Assembly (NCBI GenBank): GCA_020432045.1
Contig: JAGQHB010000015.1
Span: forward strand, 1-64,000
Source: Dehalococcoidia bacterium
GTDB taxonomy: Bacteria; Chloroflexota; Dehalococcoidia; Tepidiformales; Tepidiformaceae
Direction: 5' to 3'
Length of the DNA stretch: 64,000 nt
How positions within the stretch are numbered: position 1 is the first letter of the stretch; each line of letters opens with the position of its first letter. Shown piece after piece: positions 1 to 60,806 of the stretch. The notes below the pieces were generated by a model. That model ran no database searches. It was not told where the DNA came from and saw only the letters and a list, made by a program, of their open reading frames with translations. Made by a program: the position numbers and the translations under genes.

Positions 1-890
1 CCCGCCGCTGCCCCCGCGGCCGCTCCCGCCCCGGCACCAGCGATCGCACCCGTGCCCGCCGCCAGCCCGATCCCGCCGGCAACCGTCGCCCAAACTCCTG
101 CTTTGAACGCGCCGGCCGCCACCACCGGTGCGAGTGCACCGAACACAACCTCCGGCGTCATCAGTCCTGCCTGCGTCGATTGGCAGGTGATGCAACTCCG
201 TGAGTGCCGCCCAATCGCTGCCGCCAGGTCCGGTGTCAGCGTTCCGCCGTGGCTGGCGCCGACCTCATGCCGGAGCTGTTCACAACGGCCGCTCCCCTCG
301 CGCAACAGGAATAAGGCCGACGTGCTCGATCGCAACGACGCCTTCGCCCGGTTTAGCAGGACCGCGGCGTGGTTTCGCGTGACCCCGATCGCCTCGGCAA
401 TCTCCGGTGATTCGAGCCCCTGGCGCACGTTCAGGTCCAGTACCGCGTACTGCCGCTCCTCCAGGCCCGCCGCCGCTTCCCATACCAGCTGTGCGGTCGC
501 CGCGATTCCCAGCGCTTGCTCCGGCTGCGTCAGCCGGTCGGCATCGGCGACATCGAAGATCCCCGACCCGCCATCGCCGTCCCCGCCGCCGCGCGAATCA
601 TCCGGGAACGGCACTTCGCGGCCCTTTCGCCGCAGCTGTGTCATCGCCGTGTTGTGCGCGATAGAAAATAGCCAGCTCTTGAACCGCTCCGGCTGCTCCA
701 GCCCCGGCAGCCCGCGAAACGCCTTCACGAACGTATCCTGGGCCGCGTCTTCCGCGTCCTGCTGGTTCCGCAACATGCGCGCCAGGAAGTCGTACACGCC
801 ATCGAAATACTGCGTGTAGAGCTCCGCCATCGCCCCGGCATCGCCGCTGGCCGCTCGCGAAATGACGTCGGTTTGCGCTGTTTCCATCAT
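1..890 (-). CDS. ECF sigma factor fused to a zinc-finger (anti-sigma-like) tail, C-terminus cut by window edge
   Basis: Read directly from the minus strand, this frame is open from ATG at 890 (a second ATG at 887) to the window edge, 296 codons without a stop. Residues about 20-90 are sigma region 2 (AELYTQYFDGVYDFLARML, then QDTFVKAF and SWLFSIAHN), and 130-187 are region 4 with a helix-turn-helix (SPEIAEAIGVTRNHAAVLLNR). Residues 203-236 look like a zf-HC2 anti-sigma zinc site: Cys203 and H229-x3-C233-x2-C236. From about 248 the chain is hydrophobic, then Ala/Gly-rich, suggesting a membrane segment. Sigma and ZAS anti-sigma factors are normally separate, neighbouring genes; here they appear in one polypeptide. 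The C-terminus and anything downstream are unseen. No clear ribosome site precedes the start. Confidence 0.85.
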   Translation of the reverse strand, partial: MMETAQTDVISRAASGDAGAMAELYTQYFDGVYDFLARMLRNQQDAEDAAQDTFVKAFRGLPGLEQPERFKSWLFSIAHNTAMTQLRRKGREVPFPDDSRGGGDGDGGSGIFDVADADRLTQPEQALGIAATAQLVWEAAAGLEERQYAVLDLNVRQGLESPEIAEAIGVTRNHAAVLLNRAKASLRSSTSALFLLREGSGRCEQLRHEVGASHGGTLTPDLAAAIGRHSRSCITCQSTQAGLMTPEVVFGALAPVVAAGAFKAGVWATVAGGIGLAAGTGAIAGAGAGAAAGAAA

Positions 891-1160: not shown

Positions 1161-1347
1161 GCGCGGACCGCTTCGATTCTGCGAGGCGGTCCGCGCAGAC
1201 AAACGCCCGAGCCGGTGTCCGTCCAAGAGCGCCCCGGACGGCACACCGGCAAGGGCCCCAGGGTTCGGTGCCGGGTGGTTCTCCCTCCGCCCGGAGACCG
1301 GCCCGGCTAGTGGATGTGGTGGCGGCGGTGCCCGACGCCGCCACTAC
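1161..1347. other. Four consecutive GC-rich hairpins upstream of the racemase gene
   Basis: Four inverted repeats follow each other. (1) 1161-1171 pairs perfectly with 1186-1196 and can extend inward by three pairs. (2) 1211-1224 pairs with 1236-1250 with one bulged base. (3) 1270-1284 pairs imperfectly with 1293-1307. (4) 1316-1327 pairs with 1336-1347 with one G-T wobble. None carries a T-run. They fill most of the leader ahead of the TTG start at 1422. This could be a structured 5' leader, an unrecognised small RNA on either strand, or protein-binding sites. I tried RNase P, tmRNA, SRP RNA and tRNA landmarks and found none. The rest of 891-1421 shows no convincing gene. Confidence 0.45.
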
Positions 1348-1421
1348 ATCATCCGCACCACCACCACCCACTGGCATCTCGCCCGCTAGACTTGTGCCTC
1401 CACCAAAAGGAGGCTCAACAC

Positions 1422-2567
1422 TTGGCAGGACCACTCACTGGTACACGGATCATCGAAGTAGCCGGCATCGGCCCCGGCCCTTTCTGCGTCATGATGCTCG
1501 CCGACATGGGGGCGGAGATCATCCGCGTCGACCGCGCCTCGAATGTGCGCCCCGGCAGCGAGCGCCGCACCGATATCCTCGGCCGCAGCCGGCGCTCCAT
1601 CGCCATCGACCTCACGAAGCCTGAGGGCGTCGAAACGCTCCTTCGCCTCGCCGAAACGGCCGATGGCCTCACCGAAGGCTTCCGCCCCGGCGTCATGGAG
1701 CGTCTCGGGGTCGGCCCCGATGAGTGCCTCGCGCGCAATCCAAAGCTCGTTTACGGCCGTATGACCGGCTGGGGCCAGGAAGGCCCCTACGCCTCAACGG
1801 CCGGCCACGATATTAACTACATCTCCCTCGCTGGGGCCCTCGCCCATATCGGCCGCAAGGGCGAAGCTCCCGCGCCCCCGCTCAACCTCGTTGGCGACAA
1901 CGGTGGCGGCGGCATGCTCCTCGCCTTCGGCATGGCCTGCGGCCTCTTCGAATCCCAGCGCAGCGGCAAGGGCCAGGTCATTGATGCCGCAATGGTCGAC
2001 GGCGCTGCGCTCCTCATGGCGCCCTTCTATTCCATGCTCGCCAGCGGCATGTGGAAAGAGGAACGGGGCTCGAACCTGCTCGATTCTGGCGCCCACTTCT
2101 ACGACGCCTACGAGTGCGCCGATGGCCAGTACGTTTCCCTCGGATCCATTGAGCCGCAGTTCTACGCTTTGCTGCTCAAGCACACCGGTCTCGACAACGA
2201 GCCTGAGTTCGCCGGGCAGATGGACCGAGCGCAGTGGCCGGCGCTCAAGGAGCGCGTCACCGCCGTTATGAAGACGAAAACCCGCGCCGAATGGTGCGCC
2301 ATCATGGAAGGCACCGACATTTGCTTCGCACCGGTCCTCACGATGAGCGAGGCCATGAAGCACCCACATAACATCCACCGCAACACCTTTGTCGAATCGG
2401 CGGGCGTCAGCCAGCCCGGTCCCGCCCCGCGCTTCAGCCGTACCACGCCCGAGATCGCCGGACCCCCGTCCATCCCGGGTGAACACAGCGACGCCATCCT
2501 CGGTGAACTGCTCGGTTCCTCCGCCGCCGAGATCGCCGCCCTCCGCGCCAGCGGTGCTATCGGTTAA
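1422..2567 (+). CDS. Alpha-methylacyl-CoA racemase (CaiB/BaiF family III CoA-transferase fold)
   Basis: 381 residues, the usual length of the family. It would interconvert R and S 2-methylacyl-CoA esters for beta-oxidation of branched chains. The catalytic set of mycobacterial MCR is present: His129 (in TAGHDINY), Asp159 (in LVGDNGGGG) and a Glu in GSIEPQFY, so racemase is favoured over CoA transfer. The start is taken as TTG at 1422, because aaaaggagg lies just upstream and the family N-terminus (GTRIIEVAGIGPGPFC) begins here. The frame stays open upstream to 1314, but that part is His/Pro-rich and unlike the family. It heads a run of lipid-catabolism genes with the BVMO 81 nt downstream. 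Confidence 0.88.
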   Translation: MAGPLTGTRIIEVAGIGPGPFCVMMLADMGAEIIRVDRASNVRPGSERRTDILGRSRRSIAIDLTKPEGVETLLRLAETADGLTEGFRPGVMERLGVGPDECLARNPKLVYGRMTGWGQEGPYASTAGHDINYISLAGALAHIGRKGEAPAPPLNLVGDNGGGGMLLAFGMACGLFESQRSGKGQVIDAAMVDGAALLMAPFYSMLASGMWKEERGSNLLDSGAHFYDAYECADGQYVSLGSIEPQFYALLLKHTGLDNEPEFAGQMDRAQWPALKERVTAVMKTKTRAEWCAIMEGTDICFAPVLTMSEAMKHPHNIHRNTFVESAGVSQPGPAPRFSRTTPEIAGPPSIPGEHSDAILGELLGSSAAEIAALRASGAIG

Positions 2568-2648
2568 CCACACCCGAACTTTCCTGGTTGGACATCGCTT
2601 GGGGACGGATGACAGAATCCGCTCCCAGGTGATACCAGGAGGCTTTCC

Positions 2649-4310
2649 ATGACTGCCATTTCAGACGCGCCAGCCGAGATTCGTAGGACTTCCGCGAAGG
2701 AGTTCGATTGTGTCGTTGTGGGCGCCGGATTCGCCGGCATGTACATGCTCCACAAGCTCCGCGAATTCGGATTCTCTGCGATCGTCGTGGAGGCCGGGAC
2801 CGGCGTCGGTGGTACCTGGTACTGGAACCGCTACCCCGGTGCCCGCTGCGACGTCGAGAGCCTCGACTACCAGTACTCCTTCTCCGATGAACTTCAGCGC
2901 GAATGGAACTGGTCCGAGCGCTACGCCACCCAACCGGAAATCCTCCGCTACGCCAACTTCGTCGCCGACAAGTTCGACCTTCGCCGGGACATGCAATTCG
3001 AAACGCGTGTCACATCGTCCGTCTGGGATGATGCCCGCGCCCGTTGGACCGTCGGTACGGACCGCGGCGACTCCCATTCAGCGAAATTCCTCATCGCTGG
3101 CACCGGCTGCCTCTCCGCATCCCGTCTCCCCGACTACGAAGGAATCGACGATTTCAAGGGAAACTGGTACCACACCGGCCAGTGGCCCCACGAGGGCGTC
3201 GATTTCACCGGAAGGCGCGTCGCTGTTATCGGCACAGGTTCTTCCGGCATCCAATCGATCCCACTGATCGCCGAACAGGCGTCTCAACTCTTTGTCTTCC
3301 AGCGAACTCCCAACTTCAGCCTCCCCGCCAACAATGCTGCCCTCACGCCGGAACGGGTGAGCGACCATAAGTCGAATTTCCAGGCCATCAAAGCTCAGGC
3401 CCGCCAAACGGCAGGTGGCGTGATCGCCAACCCGAACATGACCTCCGCACTCGAGGTCGACCCGGCTGAGCGTGAGAGCGAATTCGAAACCCGCTGGGGC
3501 CAGGGTGGCTTCCAGGTCATCCAGGCCTACGCCGACCTCCTGGTCACCAATCAGGCAAATGAGACGATCGCCGAATTCGTCCGCAACAAGATCCGCCAGA
3601 CCGTGAAGGACCCGAAGATCGCTGAGGCGTTGGCACCCAGGGACCACCCCCTCGGCACCAAGCGCATCTGCATCGATACCAACTACTACGACACCTACAA
3701 CCGCGACAATGTCGCACTCATAAACATCCGCGAGAACCCCATTGAACGCATCATCCCCACGGGTGTCCGCACAAAGGAGGGCGACTTCGAAGTCGACGCC
3801 ATCGTCTTCGCAACGGGGTTCGATGCTATGACCGGCGCCCTCCTCAGCATGGGAATCGAAGGGCAGGCCGGTGTGAAGCTCAAAGACAAGTGGGCGGCTG
3901 GTCCGCGGACCTTCCTCGGTCTCCAGGCTGCCGGTTTCCCCAACCTCTTCACGATCACCGGCCCCGGCAGTCCCTCTGTCCTCAGCAACATGATCATCTC
4001 TATCGAACAACACGTGGAGTGGATCGCCGACTGCCTCGCCTATCTGCGTGAGCATGGCCTCGACACGATCGAAGCCAACCTCGATGCCGAGGACGCATGG
4101 GTCGACCACGTGAACGAACTCGCCGATAAGACGCTCTACCCCCAGGCGAACTCCTGGTACCTCGGAGCGAATGTCCCCGGCAAGCCGCGTGTCTTTATGC
4201 CTTACGTGGGCGGCGTCGGCGCCTATGCCGATCGCTGTCGGGAGATCGCCGCCGATGGCTACGAAGGCTTCACTCTCGGTACCTCAGCGAAGGCTGGTGC
4301 ACCTGCATAG
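2649..4310 (+). CDS. Baeyer-Villiger flavin monooxygenase (cyclohexanone/phenylacetone monooxygenase type)
   Basis: 553 residues. It is expected to insert oxygen next to a ketone using FAD, NADPH and O2. There are two Rossmann motifs, GAGFAG at 25-30 (FAD) and GTGSSG at 195-200 (NADPH), and between them the type I BVMO fingerprint FKGNWYHTGQWP at 169-180 matching FxGxxxHxxxWP. GTWYWNRYPG near residue 55 is also typical of the family. A strong ribosome site (aggagg) precedes ATG 2649. Substrate cannot be read from sequence; the surrounding acyl-CoA genes suggest ketones or cyclic compounds feeding beta-oxidation. Confidence 0.9.
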   Translation: MTAISDAPAEIRRTSAKEFDCVVVGAGFAGMYMLHKLREFGFSAIVVEAGTGVGGTWYWNRYPGARCDVESLDYQYSFSDELQREWNWSERYATQPEILRYANFVADKFDLRRDMQFETRVTSSVWDDARARWTVGTDRGDSHSAKFLIAGTGCLSASRLPDYEGIDDFKGNWYHTGQWPHEGVDFTGRRVAVIGTGSSGIQSIPLIAEQASQLFVFQRTPNFSLPANNAALTPERVSDHKSNFQAIKAQARQTAGGVIANPNMTSALEVDPAERESEFETRWGQGGFQVIQAYADLLVTNQANETIAEFVRNKIRQTVKDPKIAEALAPRDHPLGTKRICIDTNYYDTYNRDNVALINIRENPIERIIPTGVRTKEGDFEVDAIVFATGFDAMTGALLSMGIEGQAGVKLKDKWAAGPRTFLGLQAAGFPNLFTITGPGSPSVLSNMIISIEQHVEWIADCLAYLREHGLDTIEANLDAEDAWVDHVNELADKTLYPQANSWYLGANVPGKPRVFMPYVGGVGAYADRCREIAADGYEGFTLGTSAKAGAPA

Positions 4311-4331
4311 TCGGTGCCACGGAACAAGACA

Positions 4332-4361
4332 AACGGCCGCAGGCTGTGTTGTGCGGCCGTT
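4332..4361. terminator. Bidirectional terminator hairpin
   Basis: A 10-bp perfect stem (aacggccgca with tgcggccgtt) and 10-nt loop sit between the convergent BVMO and methyltransferase-fold genes. The trailing sequence is only modestly T-rich. Confidence 0.6.
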
Positions 4362-4385
4362 CGCTCTATCCCGCGAATTCTGGCC

Positions 4386-5039
4386 CTATCGCCTGTGCCC
4401 GACGTACACCGAATGGCGCGTGTGATGTGACGTCACGCGTTCGCCAGAAGCGTTGAACCCCGCCGCCCGCAGTTGGTGCAGAAATGCCGGGTACTCTTCC
4501 ACCGACCACACCGCCACGGCCCCGCCCCTCCGCAGTGCTCGCCTGATCGCATCGAGTCCCCCCGGCGTGTACAGCCACGAATTGTTCCGCTGTGTCGGTG
4601 CATGCGGCCCGTTGTCCACATCCAGAAGAATCACATCGAACTGCCCTTCGCCCGCGAGGATCACCCGCCGAACGTCGTCCACTACCAGTTTTGTCCGGGC
4701 ATCGTCCAACGGATTCCCGGCCAGCGGCCCGAGGTACTCGCGGTTCCACTCCACCACGGCCTCCACCAGTTCCGCGACAACCACCTGCCCGTCCTCTGGC
4801 ACAAAATCCAGCGCCGCCCGCGCTGTGTACCCCATGCCGAGCCCCCCGACGAGTACCCGCATGCCCGCCGTAGGGCTCGCACAGGCAAGCGCCATCATTG
4901 ACTCTTCGGACCCGTGAGCGCGGCTAATCATCAGGTCGTACCCATCTGCCCTGATGACATAATCCCCATCGTGTCTCCGCAGTTCGAGGCTGTTGCCATC
5001 CGGCATCGTCGCTTTCGCCAGTATCTCCGTCGGCTTCAT
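4386..5039 (-). CDS. Spermidine-synthase-like / class I methyltransferase-fold protein
   Basis: 217 residues from ATG 5039. The motif VLVGGLGMGYTARAAL is the nucleotide-binding glycine loop, followed by an acidic strand end (VVVAELVEAVVEWNRE) and FDVILLDVDNGP, the arrangement in polyamine synthases and their orphan relatives. It is shorter than true SpeE (about 280) and lacks the usual N-terminal strand domain, so the substrate is uncertain. Two further in-frame ATGs lie upstream (5048, 5057). A TACGAT box 7 nt before 5039 favours the shorter start on a leaderless transcript. The gene converges on the BVMO gene. Confidence 0.7.
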   Translation of the reverse strand: MKPTEILAKATMPDGNSLELRRHDGDYVIRADGYDLMISRAHGSEESMMALACASPTAGMRVLVGGLGMGYTARAALDFVPEDGQVVVAELVEAVVEWNREYLGPLAGNPLDDARTKLVVDDVRRVILAGEGQFDVILLDVDNGPHAPTQRNNSWLYTPGGLDAIRRALRRGGAVAVWSVEEYPAFLHQLRAAGFNASGERVTSHHTRHSVYVGHRR

Positions 5040-5046
5040 CCACCCC

Positions 5047-5052
5047 ATCGTA
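5047..5052 (-). promoter_or_regulatory. -10 box (TACGAT), leaderless-type
   Basis: TACGAT on the minus strand, 7 nt from ATG 5039. One of the recurring near-start -10 boxes of this window; no good -35 is seen. Confidence 0.45.
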
Positions 5053-5122
5053 GCCACAGGCCCCGGTGCGCGCTGGCGGCTTGCACCCGTATCGTGCGCA
5101 GCATCACTCGTGGAGGATGGGA

Positions 5123-5893
5123 ATGACTGGATTGAGTGGGCGCACTGCCCTCGTTACCGGCGGCAGCCGTGGTATCGGACGTGCCATCTGCCTTCGCCTC
5201 GCGGAGGATGGCGCCGATGTCGCCGTGAACTACCGTGGCAATCAGCAGGACGCCGAAGCAGTCGTCTCCAAGATTCGCGCCATGGGTCGTCATGCTGAGG
5301 CCTACCAGGCCGATGTCTCTGATCCCGTGGCCTGCGACATCATGGTCCAGCACCTCGTCGCCGATTTCCCCGGCCTCGACATCCTCGTGAACAACGCCGG
5401 GATCGGCAGTAGCGGTATCGGCCGCCCGACGATCACGGAAGCCACACCCGAGCAGGTCAATCTTCTCGTCGGCGCCAACCTTCTCGGCCCTATTCACCTC
5501 TGCCGCAACCTCGTGCCTCACATGCGAAAGGCCGACCGCAGCGACATCATCATGATCTCGTCCGTCGCCACGCAGACGATGAGTGCCCGCATGGGTGTCT
5601 ATTCCATCACCAAGGCCGGACTTGAAGCCCTCGCCCACACGCTCGCGAAGGAGGAACGCGAACACGGCATGCGCGTCAACATCGTCGCTCCAGGCCTCGT
5701 CGAAACCGACATGGGCCGCAATCTCATCCGCCAGCTCCCCGGTCCCGACGACATGCGGGAGCGCGACGCCATGTCGCCCTTTGGGTTCGTTTGCCAGCCG
5801 GACGACATAGCCAACGCCGTCGCCTTTCTTGTCTCCGAACAGGGCCGCTATATCACGAACCAGCGCCTCACCGTCAACGGCGGAGGGTTCTGA
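5123..5893 (+). CDS. Short-chain dehydrogenase/reductase (FabG-like)
   Basis: 256 residues. It shows the NAD(P) motif TGGSRGIG near the N-terminus, NNAG (VNNAGIG), and the Ser-Tyr-Lys catalytic set (SSVATQ... then YSITK). It ends in the FabG-like TVNGGGF. It probably oxidises or reduces a hydroxy/keto acyl substrate. Of two close ATGs (5117, 5123), the second has ggagg at 6-nt spacing and is chosen. The enoyl-CoA hydratase starts 4 nt after its stop, so the two are co-transcribed and likely act in one beta-oxidation-type route. Confidence 0.87.
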   Translation: MTGLSGRTALVTGGSRGIGRAICLRLAEDGADVAVNYRGNQQDAEAVVSKIRAMGRHAEAYQADVSDPVACDIMVQHLVADFPGLDILVNNAGIGSSGIGRPTITEATPEQVNLLVGANLLGPIHLCRNLVPHMRKADRSDIIMISSVATQTMSARMGVYSITKAGLEALAHTLAKEEREHGMRVNIVAPGLVETDMGRNLIRQLPGPDDMRERDAMSPFGFVCQPDDIANAVAFLVSEQGRYITNQRLTVNGGGF

Positions 5894-5897
5894 CGGC

Positions 5898-6713
5898 ATG
5901 CCTGGAGACCCTCGTATCCGCTACGAAACCCGTCATGAAGGCACTATCGCCGTCGTAAGCCTCTCTCGTGAGCGCTATCGCAACGCCCTTAGTCAGCAGT
6001 TGATGACTGAACTCGAATCCGCCTTCGACGAGGCCGAGGCGGACGACGCCGTTCGCGTCATCATCCTTCGTGGCGATGGCCCGGTGTTCTCCGCCGGACA
6101 CGACCTCGGTTCTCCCGATGCCATCGAGTCCCGCGCGCTTACCGGCGGGGAGAGCATGGGCCACCGCTATCCCCGGACGCGCGCAATGGACGTTGACCCG
6201 CATCTCCGTTTTCGCAACATCCCCAAGCCCACGATCGCCATGATCCACGGCCACTGCATCTATGCAGCCTGGATGCTCGCTTCGTCCATGGACGTCATCT
6301 TTGCGGCGGAGGACGCCCAGTTTCTCGCCACCAACTTCGCCTACTTCTCCGTCCCCTGGGACGTAGGTGCTCGGCGTGCCAAGCATCTGCTTTTCGACGA
6401 CCGCTTCCTTACCGCTCGCGAAGCGATGGAATGCGGATTCGTCCAGGACGTCTTCCCGCCCGACCGCCTCGAAGCCGAAACCATGGCCTATGCCGAACGC
6501 GTCGCCGCCAAGGATCCGTTCCAGCTCCGCATGATTAAGCACTCCGTCCACCAGATGCAGGAGATGCAGGGCTTCACTGCGCACATCATGTCGTCCTACT
6601 CGGACCGTATGGTCCGTGCCGCGAATACCGATGCGCCAATCACCCAGGAGCAATCCGAGCCCGGAAAACGCCGCCTCTACACCAGCGTTGAACGGGCTCG
6701 TGCCAACCGCTGA
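5898..6713 (+). CDS. Enoyl-CoA hydratase/isomerase family protein
   Basis: 271 residues of crotonase fold. The first oxyanion-hole segment is recognisable (VFSAGHDLGS), and IAMIHGHCIYAAWMLASSMD corresponds to the second, normally HGxxxGGG; here the glycines are largely replaced by Tyr-Ala-Ala, so the chemistry may differ from simple hydration. The start ATG 5898 follows the SDR stop by 4 nt. It is translationally close to the SDR and part of the acyl-CoA catabolism block. Confidence 0.83.
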   Translation: MPGDPRIRYETRHEGTIAVVSLSRERYRNALSQQLMTELESAFDEAEADDAVRVIILRGDGPVFSAGHDLGSPDAIESRALTGGESMGHRYPRTRAMDVDPHLRFRNIPKPTIAMIHGHCIYAAWMLASSMDVIFAAEDAQFLATNFAYFSVPWDVGARRAKHLLFDDRFLTAREAMECGFVQDVFPPDRLEAETMAYAERVAAKDPFQLRMIKHSVHQMQEMQGFTAHIMSSYSDRMVRAANTDAPITQEQSEPGKRRLYTSVERARANR

Positions 6714-60114: not shown

Positions 60115-60806
60115 TAGCCGATCAGGTCAAAGACGAAGTCGGAAAGCCCGCCAATGACCCATCCGAGAGGATCGATTGCTCCTCCGGTCGCAAACGAAAT
60201 CACGATCAACCCGATGAGCAGCGCTGGGCCCCACGGCCGAACCTGTTGAAGCTGCAGCCGGACTTCGCGCGGCAGAAGCGGTTGAATCACGTCAAAGCCG
60301 TCAAGCGGCGGGATCGGGATCATATTGAAGACACCCAGCAGCACGTTCCAGAACACGAGGAAGACCAGGAACAGGCCCACGATTTCCGATCCGCTGGCGT
60401 CGCCGATCGCGTCGAAACTGGCCACGGAGTCAATCAGCCCCGCTTTTAGTGGTAGCGCCGCCACCGCTGCGATAAAGAAGTTACTGAGGGGTCCGGCTGC
60501 AGAAACGATCGCGCCACCCTTGATCGGTCCGTAGCGAAGCCGCATCGGGTTCACTGGTGTTGGTTTTGCGAACCCGAATCCGACGAGCAGCAAGAGCGCG
60601 CTGCCGATTGGATCAAGGTGTTTCAGCGGGTTGAGCGTCAACCGCCCCTGGCGCGCAGCGAGGTCGTCTCCGAGCTGATAGGCCGACCACGCATGGCAAA
60701 ATTCATGAAACGCGAGGCCCGTCACCATGGCGACGCCAGCAGCCGCCAGGAATGCAACCAGCGCCGCCGGATTGTCCTGGAACTGGTTGAGCACCGTGAA
60801 AATCAT
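60114..60806 (-). CDS. Site-2 protease-like membrane metalloprotease (M50)
   Basis: 230 residues with about six hydrophobic segments. The zinc motif HEFCH is at about residue 34-38, NPLKHLDPIG follows, and the third ligand is in FNMIPIPPLDGFDV. It is the short, PDZ-less form common in bacteria, with possible roles in intramembrane cleavage. ATG 60806 is chosen because TACGAT lies 8 nt ahead. It heads the M50-HD-tyrA-gmk operon. Confidence 0.88.
   Translation of the reverse strand: MIFTVLNQFQDNPAALVAFLAAAGVAMVTGLAFHEFCHAWSAYQLGDDLAARQGRLTLNPLKHLDPIGSALLLLVGFGFAKPTPVNPMRLRYGPIKGGAIVSAAGPLSNFFIAAVAALPLKAGLIDSVASFDAIGDASGSEIVGLFLVFLVFWNVLLGVFNMIPIPPLDGFDVIQPLLPREVRLQLQQVRPWGPALLIGLIVISFATGGAIDPLGWVIGGLSDFVFDLIG

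Follow-up and report, generated by a model that had tools for sequence, protein, structure and literature searches.

Bacteria usually keep a sigma factor and its membrane inhibitor as two genes. In several described groups the two functions are instead found in one polypeptide. ECF48 and ECF53, both described from Actinobacteria, have a C-terminal zinc-finger (ZAS-like) extension and one or two transmembrane (TM) helices (PMC8999054, PMC10766802), and some ECF52 and ECF53 proteins are predicted to bear glycosyl hydrolase or carbohydrate-binding domains (PMC10766802). In ECF52, a group described as exclusive to Actinobacteria and represented by SCO4117 of Streptomyces coelicolor, the sigma domains, a zinc finger, a TM region, a proline-rich stretch and an outside domain follow one another in a single chain; there is no partner anti-sigma gene, and proteolytic release has been proposed (PMC5826349). 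Activation of the SCO4117 gene was seen in a strain that made a shortened protein lacking the zinc finger, the TM part and the carbohydrate module (PMC5826349). In IutY (ECF243) of Pseudomonas putida, a sigma factor and a membrane anti-sigma factor share one chain, and release of the sigma factor by Prc and RseP proteolysis has been shown experimentally (PMC8999054).

The gene considered here lies at the very edge of a contig. The window, i.e. the whole stretch of 64,000 nucleotides analyzed (G000:C69:1-64000), has as its base 1 the first base of contig C69 (64,790 bp), from a source genome (G000) of 3.48 Mb in 115 contigs, and leftward extension is therefore impossible. A minus-strand frame at 1..887 runs for 295 codons without a stop and is cut by the contig end; it is interpreted as the 5′ part of a fused sigma-ZAS-TM-sortase gene. 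The start was placed at ATG 887, with ATG 890 or TTG 908 as alternatives; two ATG codons stand in tandem here, which is why the residue numbers of a first-pass annotation of this DNA are one higher than those used below. Sigma region 2 (residues 23-90; 618..821, minus strand) is recognized by Pfam PF04542 (Sigma70_r2) with an E-value of 1.3e-16, above the cut-off, and sigma region 4 (residues 134-185; 333..488, minus strand) by PF08281 (Sigma70_r4_2) with an E-value of 4.3e-5, slightly under the curated cut-off. TIGR02937 spans residues 19-187 (E 5e-23, 81 bits against a cut-off of 42.9). The protein contains sigma regions 2 and 4, without regions 1 and 3, and is an ECF sigma factor; the Pfam and TIGR02937 matches thus bear out the two regions noticed in the first-pass annotation. 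Beyond this gene, at window positions 1314-6713, translations of the frames read as CoA-transferase-, flavin monooxygenase-, short-chain dehydrogenase- and enoyl-CoA hydratase-like, a run that is not kept beside the sigma gene in relatives.

Alignment with 37 homologues delimits a predicted ZAS-type anti-sigma domain directly after region 4, at residues 186-250 (138..332, minus strand; the end is approximate). Here, the putative zinc ligands are Cys202 (282..284), His228 (204..206), Cys232 (192..194) and Cys235 (183..185), all on the minus strand, numbered from ATG 887 and with their four codons confirmed by eye. Together they constitute the motif C202-x25-H228-x3-C232-x2-C235, and each is invariant in 38 of the 38 aligned sequences (the window protein plus the 37 homologues). 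Few other columns are invariant; among them are three sigma-domain positions and, within the ZAS domain, a single Leu. A wider search of the phylum found the H-x3-C-x2-C element kept in 15 further loci, two of which are copies of genes already included. Given that the ligands are invariant and that the motif recurs in these additional loci, it is not a chance occurrence, and the zf-HC2-type site that had been proposed in frame after the sigma domains (a Cys followed by H-x3-C-x2-C) is confirmed. The Pfam zf-HC2 model gave no match to the window protein itself; it matched 13 of the 37 homologues at E ≤ 0.01, and those displayed score below the curated cut-off. When the family profile was compared with solved structures, the anti-sigma factors DdvA, ChrR and RsiW were among the best matches, at weak E-values (0.03-0.35) that are insufficient alone. 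A single-sequence structure model of the window protein was uninformative (pLDDT 41). As judged from its conservation, the site is real and of the ZAS type.

The remainder of the frame, an Ala/Gly-rich stretch delimited by hydropathy that reaches the contig end (1..179, minus strand), had been described as a hydrophobic tail with a possible role in membrane attachment. The segment is real, and it is only weakly hydrophobic, the best 19-residue Kyte-Doolittle mean being 1.82. In homologues the TM helix comes after the Ala/Gly segment, i.e. past the contig edge for the window gene. Because of the weak hydropathy and the later position of the TM helix in orthologues, the segment is assigned as a linker and is ruled out as the membrane anchor, with the TM helix itself very probably falling on another contig.

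The architecture that would be expected downstream is seen in two relatives. The closest homologue (L003; 537 amino acids) is 52% identical to the window protein and matches the sortase family PF04203 at 74 bits; a second (L006; 536 amino acids) is 47% identical and matches it at 60 bits. In both, sigma, ZAS, TM, stalk and sortase segments follow one another on one contig (28.6 and 107 kb, respectively). When the C terminus of L003 was compared with the source genome of the window, one match stood out; it lies at one end of C42, a contig of 7,578 bp, and is 60% identical over its full length. The frame concerned (L124; G000:C42:7578-6847) runs uninterrupted from the terminal base of C42, encodes 243 residues and ends in a stop. 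An Ala/Gly linker is followed by a TM helix (hydropathy 2.34), a Pro/Thr stalk and a sortase domain (PF04203, 77 bits), and the catalytic His, Cys and Arg are present in this frame as in L003 and L006. The window half and the C42 half tile both homologues end to end, with overlaps of 18 and 12 bases, and their combined length of 538 residues (295 + 243) compares with 537 and 536. The window protein groups with L003 in the sigma tree (support 100/95), and the C42 frame groups with L003 in the sortase tree (support 97/88). No other match of the fused sigma-ZAS kind was found in this genome. The 3′ half of the window gene is thus very probably located at the end of C42, the join having been deduced from sequence comparison, and the sortase domain with its catalytic residues would belong to the window gene only if that join is right. 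Since L003 and L006 are intact on single contigs, the existence of the sortase-fusion architecture is independent of the join. The first-pass annotation had recognized the sigma and ZAS parts; the extracytoplasmic sortase, which is the unusual part, was out of its view.

The reading we consider probable is that of one chain of ∼538 residues in which an ECF sigma factor, a ZAS domain, a linker, a TM helix, a stalk and an outside sortase follow one another, and from which the sigma factor is released by proteolysis. At the membrane, the ZAS domain would inhibit the sigma domains in cis. A signal would be read by the ectodomain, most likely through the sortase engaging a wall or surface substrate, or through a change in the envelope, and by analogy with known systems would lead to site-1 and then intramembrane (site-2) proteolysis. 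The freed sigma-ZAS fragment would be processed to an active sigma factor, whose targets, as suggested by the relatives, are probably genes for exported or surface proteins. The earlier idea of a self-inhibited, perhaps membrane-tethered cis fusion is in this respect supported by conservation and by the relatives, which point to a ZAS domain in cis and a membrane-anchored chain. Site-2-type proteases (M50) are present, but M50 proteins also occur in all 14 control genomes, making their presence unspecific. A partial peptidase M50 match lies on the same contig, at window positions 60270-60386 (minus strand), in a frame of 320 residues.

Release by cleavage is the step against which the foremost alternative is directed, namely that the ZAS domain or ectodomain exerts control through metal, redox state or conformation, and that the sigma factor works while tied to the membrane. 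Precedent exists in ECF41 and CorE/ECF238, whose C-terminal extensions act by conformational change, in CorE via metal binding (PMC8999054), and Cys accounts for three of the four invariant ligands. However, no further conserved Cys that would suit a redox switch is found among the invariant columns, and a TM helix combined with a large outside domain is how ECF48/52/53 and IutY are built, for which proteolysis has been proposed or shown. Control of this type is considered unlikely.

Given somewhat less credence still is the explanation that the fused sigma-ZAS-TM protein is real and that the C42 sortase is a separate gene, possibly starting at a GTG at C42:7539, such that the window protein ends otherwise, in another ectodomain or a plain Pro/Thr tail. 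There is no overlap between the ends of C69 and C42, and no conserved gene order supporting the join was found, so that synteny is unusable as proof; stand-alone sortases with a TM helix and a Pro/Thr stalk are common in these genomes; and a nearby relative (L004) has no recognized ectodomain. Set against these points, 13 in-frame Ala/Gly residues precede the GTG and match the linker of L003. There is no charged residue before the C42 TM helix, and hence no basic one, as in L003 and unlike most of the stand-alone sortases listed. Moreover, the C42 sortase is sister to the fused sortase of L003, and the two halves add up to the length of the orthologues.

The final alternative, two genes joined through a frameshift or an assembly error, which the first-pass annotation had itself named as the finding that would overturn its reading, draws on the fact that the gene stops at a contig edge within a low-complexity stretch, and is most improbable: for the sigma-ZAS part it is ruled out by the intact sigma-ZAS-TM frame of ∼50 homologues, which represent many genera and some of which come from single-contig genome assemblies. 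Additionally, the source genome contains apparent ordinary split pairs, in which an ECF match is followed a few hundred bases downstream by a zf-HC2 match (C84, C68), and the fused state is therefore specific to the window gene. Fused and split sigma/ZAS forms thus probably coexist in this genome, as far as domain matches allow.

Returning to the single membrane-spanning chain, full-length homologues occur in the same taxonomic family, class and phylum. The window protein was strongly matched in 29 of 294 sampled genomes of the class, and sigma-ZAS-TM members are also present in other parts of the phylum; no fused homologue with the ZAS motif was present among the 80 matches listed from named genomes. 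In the homologues, a linker rich in Ala/Gly or Pro leads into a single TM helix, positioned at about residues 285-365 but further along in the two long proteins L138 and L188; the ectodomain follows, usually after a stalk rich in Pro/Thr. Across the family the sigma-ZAS-TM portion is constant and the outside part varies. It is a sortase in the window clade, a BACON/Ig-like domain in most members of the same taxonomic family, a PD40 β-propeller in L138, a cohesin domain in L135 and, by a weak match, a CAP-like domain in L134, and in some members, L004 being one, none is recognized. Other parts of the phylum have shorter homologues, with frames of about 260-345 residues (G467:C73, G481:C49, G589:C146 and similar), that match up to the zinc motif; judged by length, these may be soluble fused forms without a membrane part. 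Two long sortase frames (G001:C2, G149:C104) were considered as further fusions and rejected: neither includes a sigma domain, and both resemble stand-alone sortases within a long open frame. Five more sortase genes are present in the source genome, on C1, C24 (two, adjacent), C58 and C68. The occurrence of a sigma factor and its inhibitor in one chain across many genera, with the outside domain swapped, resembles one-component receptors. Much more tentatively, it is possible that the sortase is catalytically competent and serves as the receptor, such that substrate load or wall state switches on surface-protein genes directly, and that the family is a phylum-wide one-component sigma chassis with exchangeable sensory ectodomains. 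A sortase in this position would couple the anchoring of surface proteins directly to transcription.

Upstream regions of the family genes were consistent with autoregulation in part of the family. Of 53 family genes, 15 have the element GTAAGA-N15-18-GTC in their upstream region, against 0.11 expected from mononucleotide shuffling, a comparison in which close relatives are not independent; the genes it precedes include members of three taxonomic families. A stricter pattern, TGTAAGA-N16-GTC, noted before family genes among L005-L019 and L130-L133, was applied to ten relatives (loci L195-L224) and, besides those at sigma genes, gave 20 sites with a downstream ORF. Of these ORFs, 15 open with a signal or TM segment, the figure for background genes being 16 of 132 (p 1.3e-8, Fisher test). 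The enrichment is a rough figure, because the background is small and consists of heuristic gene calls that come mainly from other genomes, and because, across the ten genomes as a whole, the pattern exceeds its reversed control only modestly (31 against 25). The direction is nonetheless clear, and the element appears to point to autoregulation and to genes for exported proteins in the relatives. The sites there represent a candidate ECF regulon, and one concrete enough to test. At L130 (G132:C7) and L131 (G195:C165), the sigma gene is followed immediately by a gene for a small exported protein that is itself preceded by the element (sites in L206 and L196); the two exported proteins are 38% identical to each other. 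In G016:C21, a BACON-type sigma gene is directly preceded by an exported-protein ORF, and a copy of the element stands just ahead of that ORF. The element is absent before the window gene and from the window's clade, and in the source genome it is no commoner than the control. Some other promoter must therefore serve the sortase clade.

Among the described systems, the closest characterized cases are SCO4117 (ECF52) and IutY. The family and ECF52 have the same order of segments, no partner anti-sigma gene and a proposed proteolytic release, and the zinc finger, TM helix and proline-rich stretch of ECF52 are present in the orthologues and the C42 half. The outside domain differs, being a carbohydrate-binding module in ECF52 and a sortase here, and the likeness is one of architecture. 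The extension and TM helices of ECF48 and ECF53 likewise resemble those of the window family, and no sortase domain is mentioned for either group (PMC8999054, PMC10766802). IutY is similar in its single chain but acts in iron cell-surface signaling, is not described as a zinc ZAS protein and is without a sortase (PMC8999054). Split ECF/ZAS pairs of the ChrR, RsiW and DdvA type have the same zinc motif and a presumed inhibitory role, with two genes in place of the one chain found here. The first-pass annotation had held that ZAS factors are usually separate; the fusion is upheld, and fusions of this kind are already on record as ECF48/52/53 and IutY (PMC8999054, PMC5826349). A literature search found no ECF sigma-sortase fusion, which is weak evidence as the published ECF group classification lay outside the comparison. 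The C42 sortase resembles known sortases in that PF04203 is matched over its full length, the His, Cys and Arg are kept, and the TM helix and Pro/Thr stalk are like those of stand-alone enzymes from the same genomes; among solved structures, the only match of the C42-type sortase was 4d70 (class D). It is unlike known sortases in being attached to a cytoplasmic sigma factor. In summary, the transmembrane ECF sigma factor with a fused ZAS domain is already known, and the sortase ectodomain appears to be the new part.
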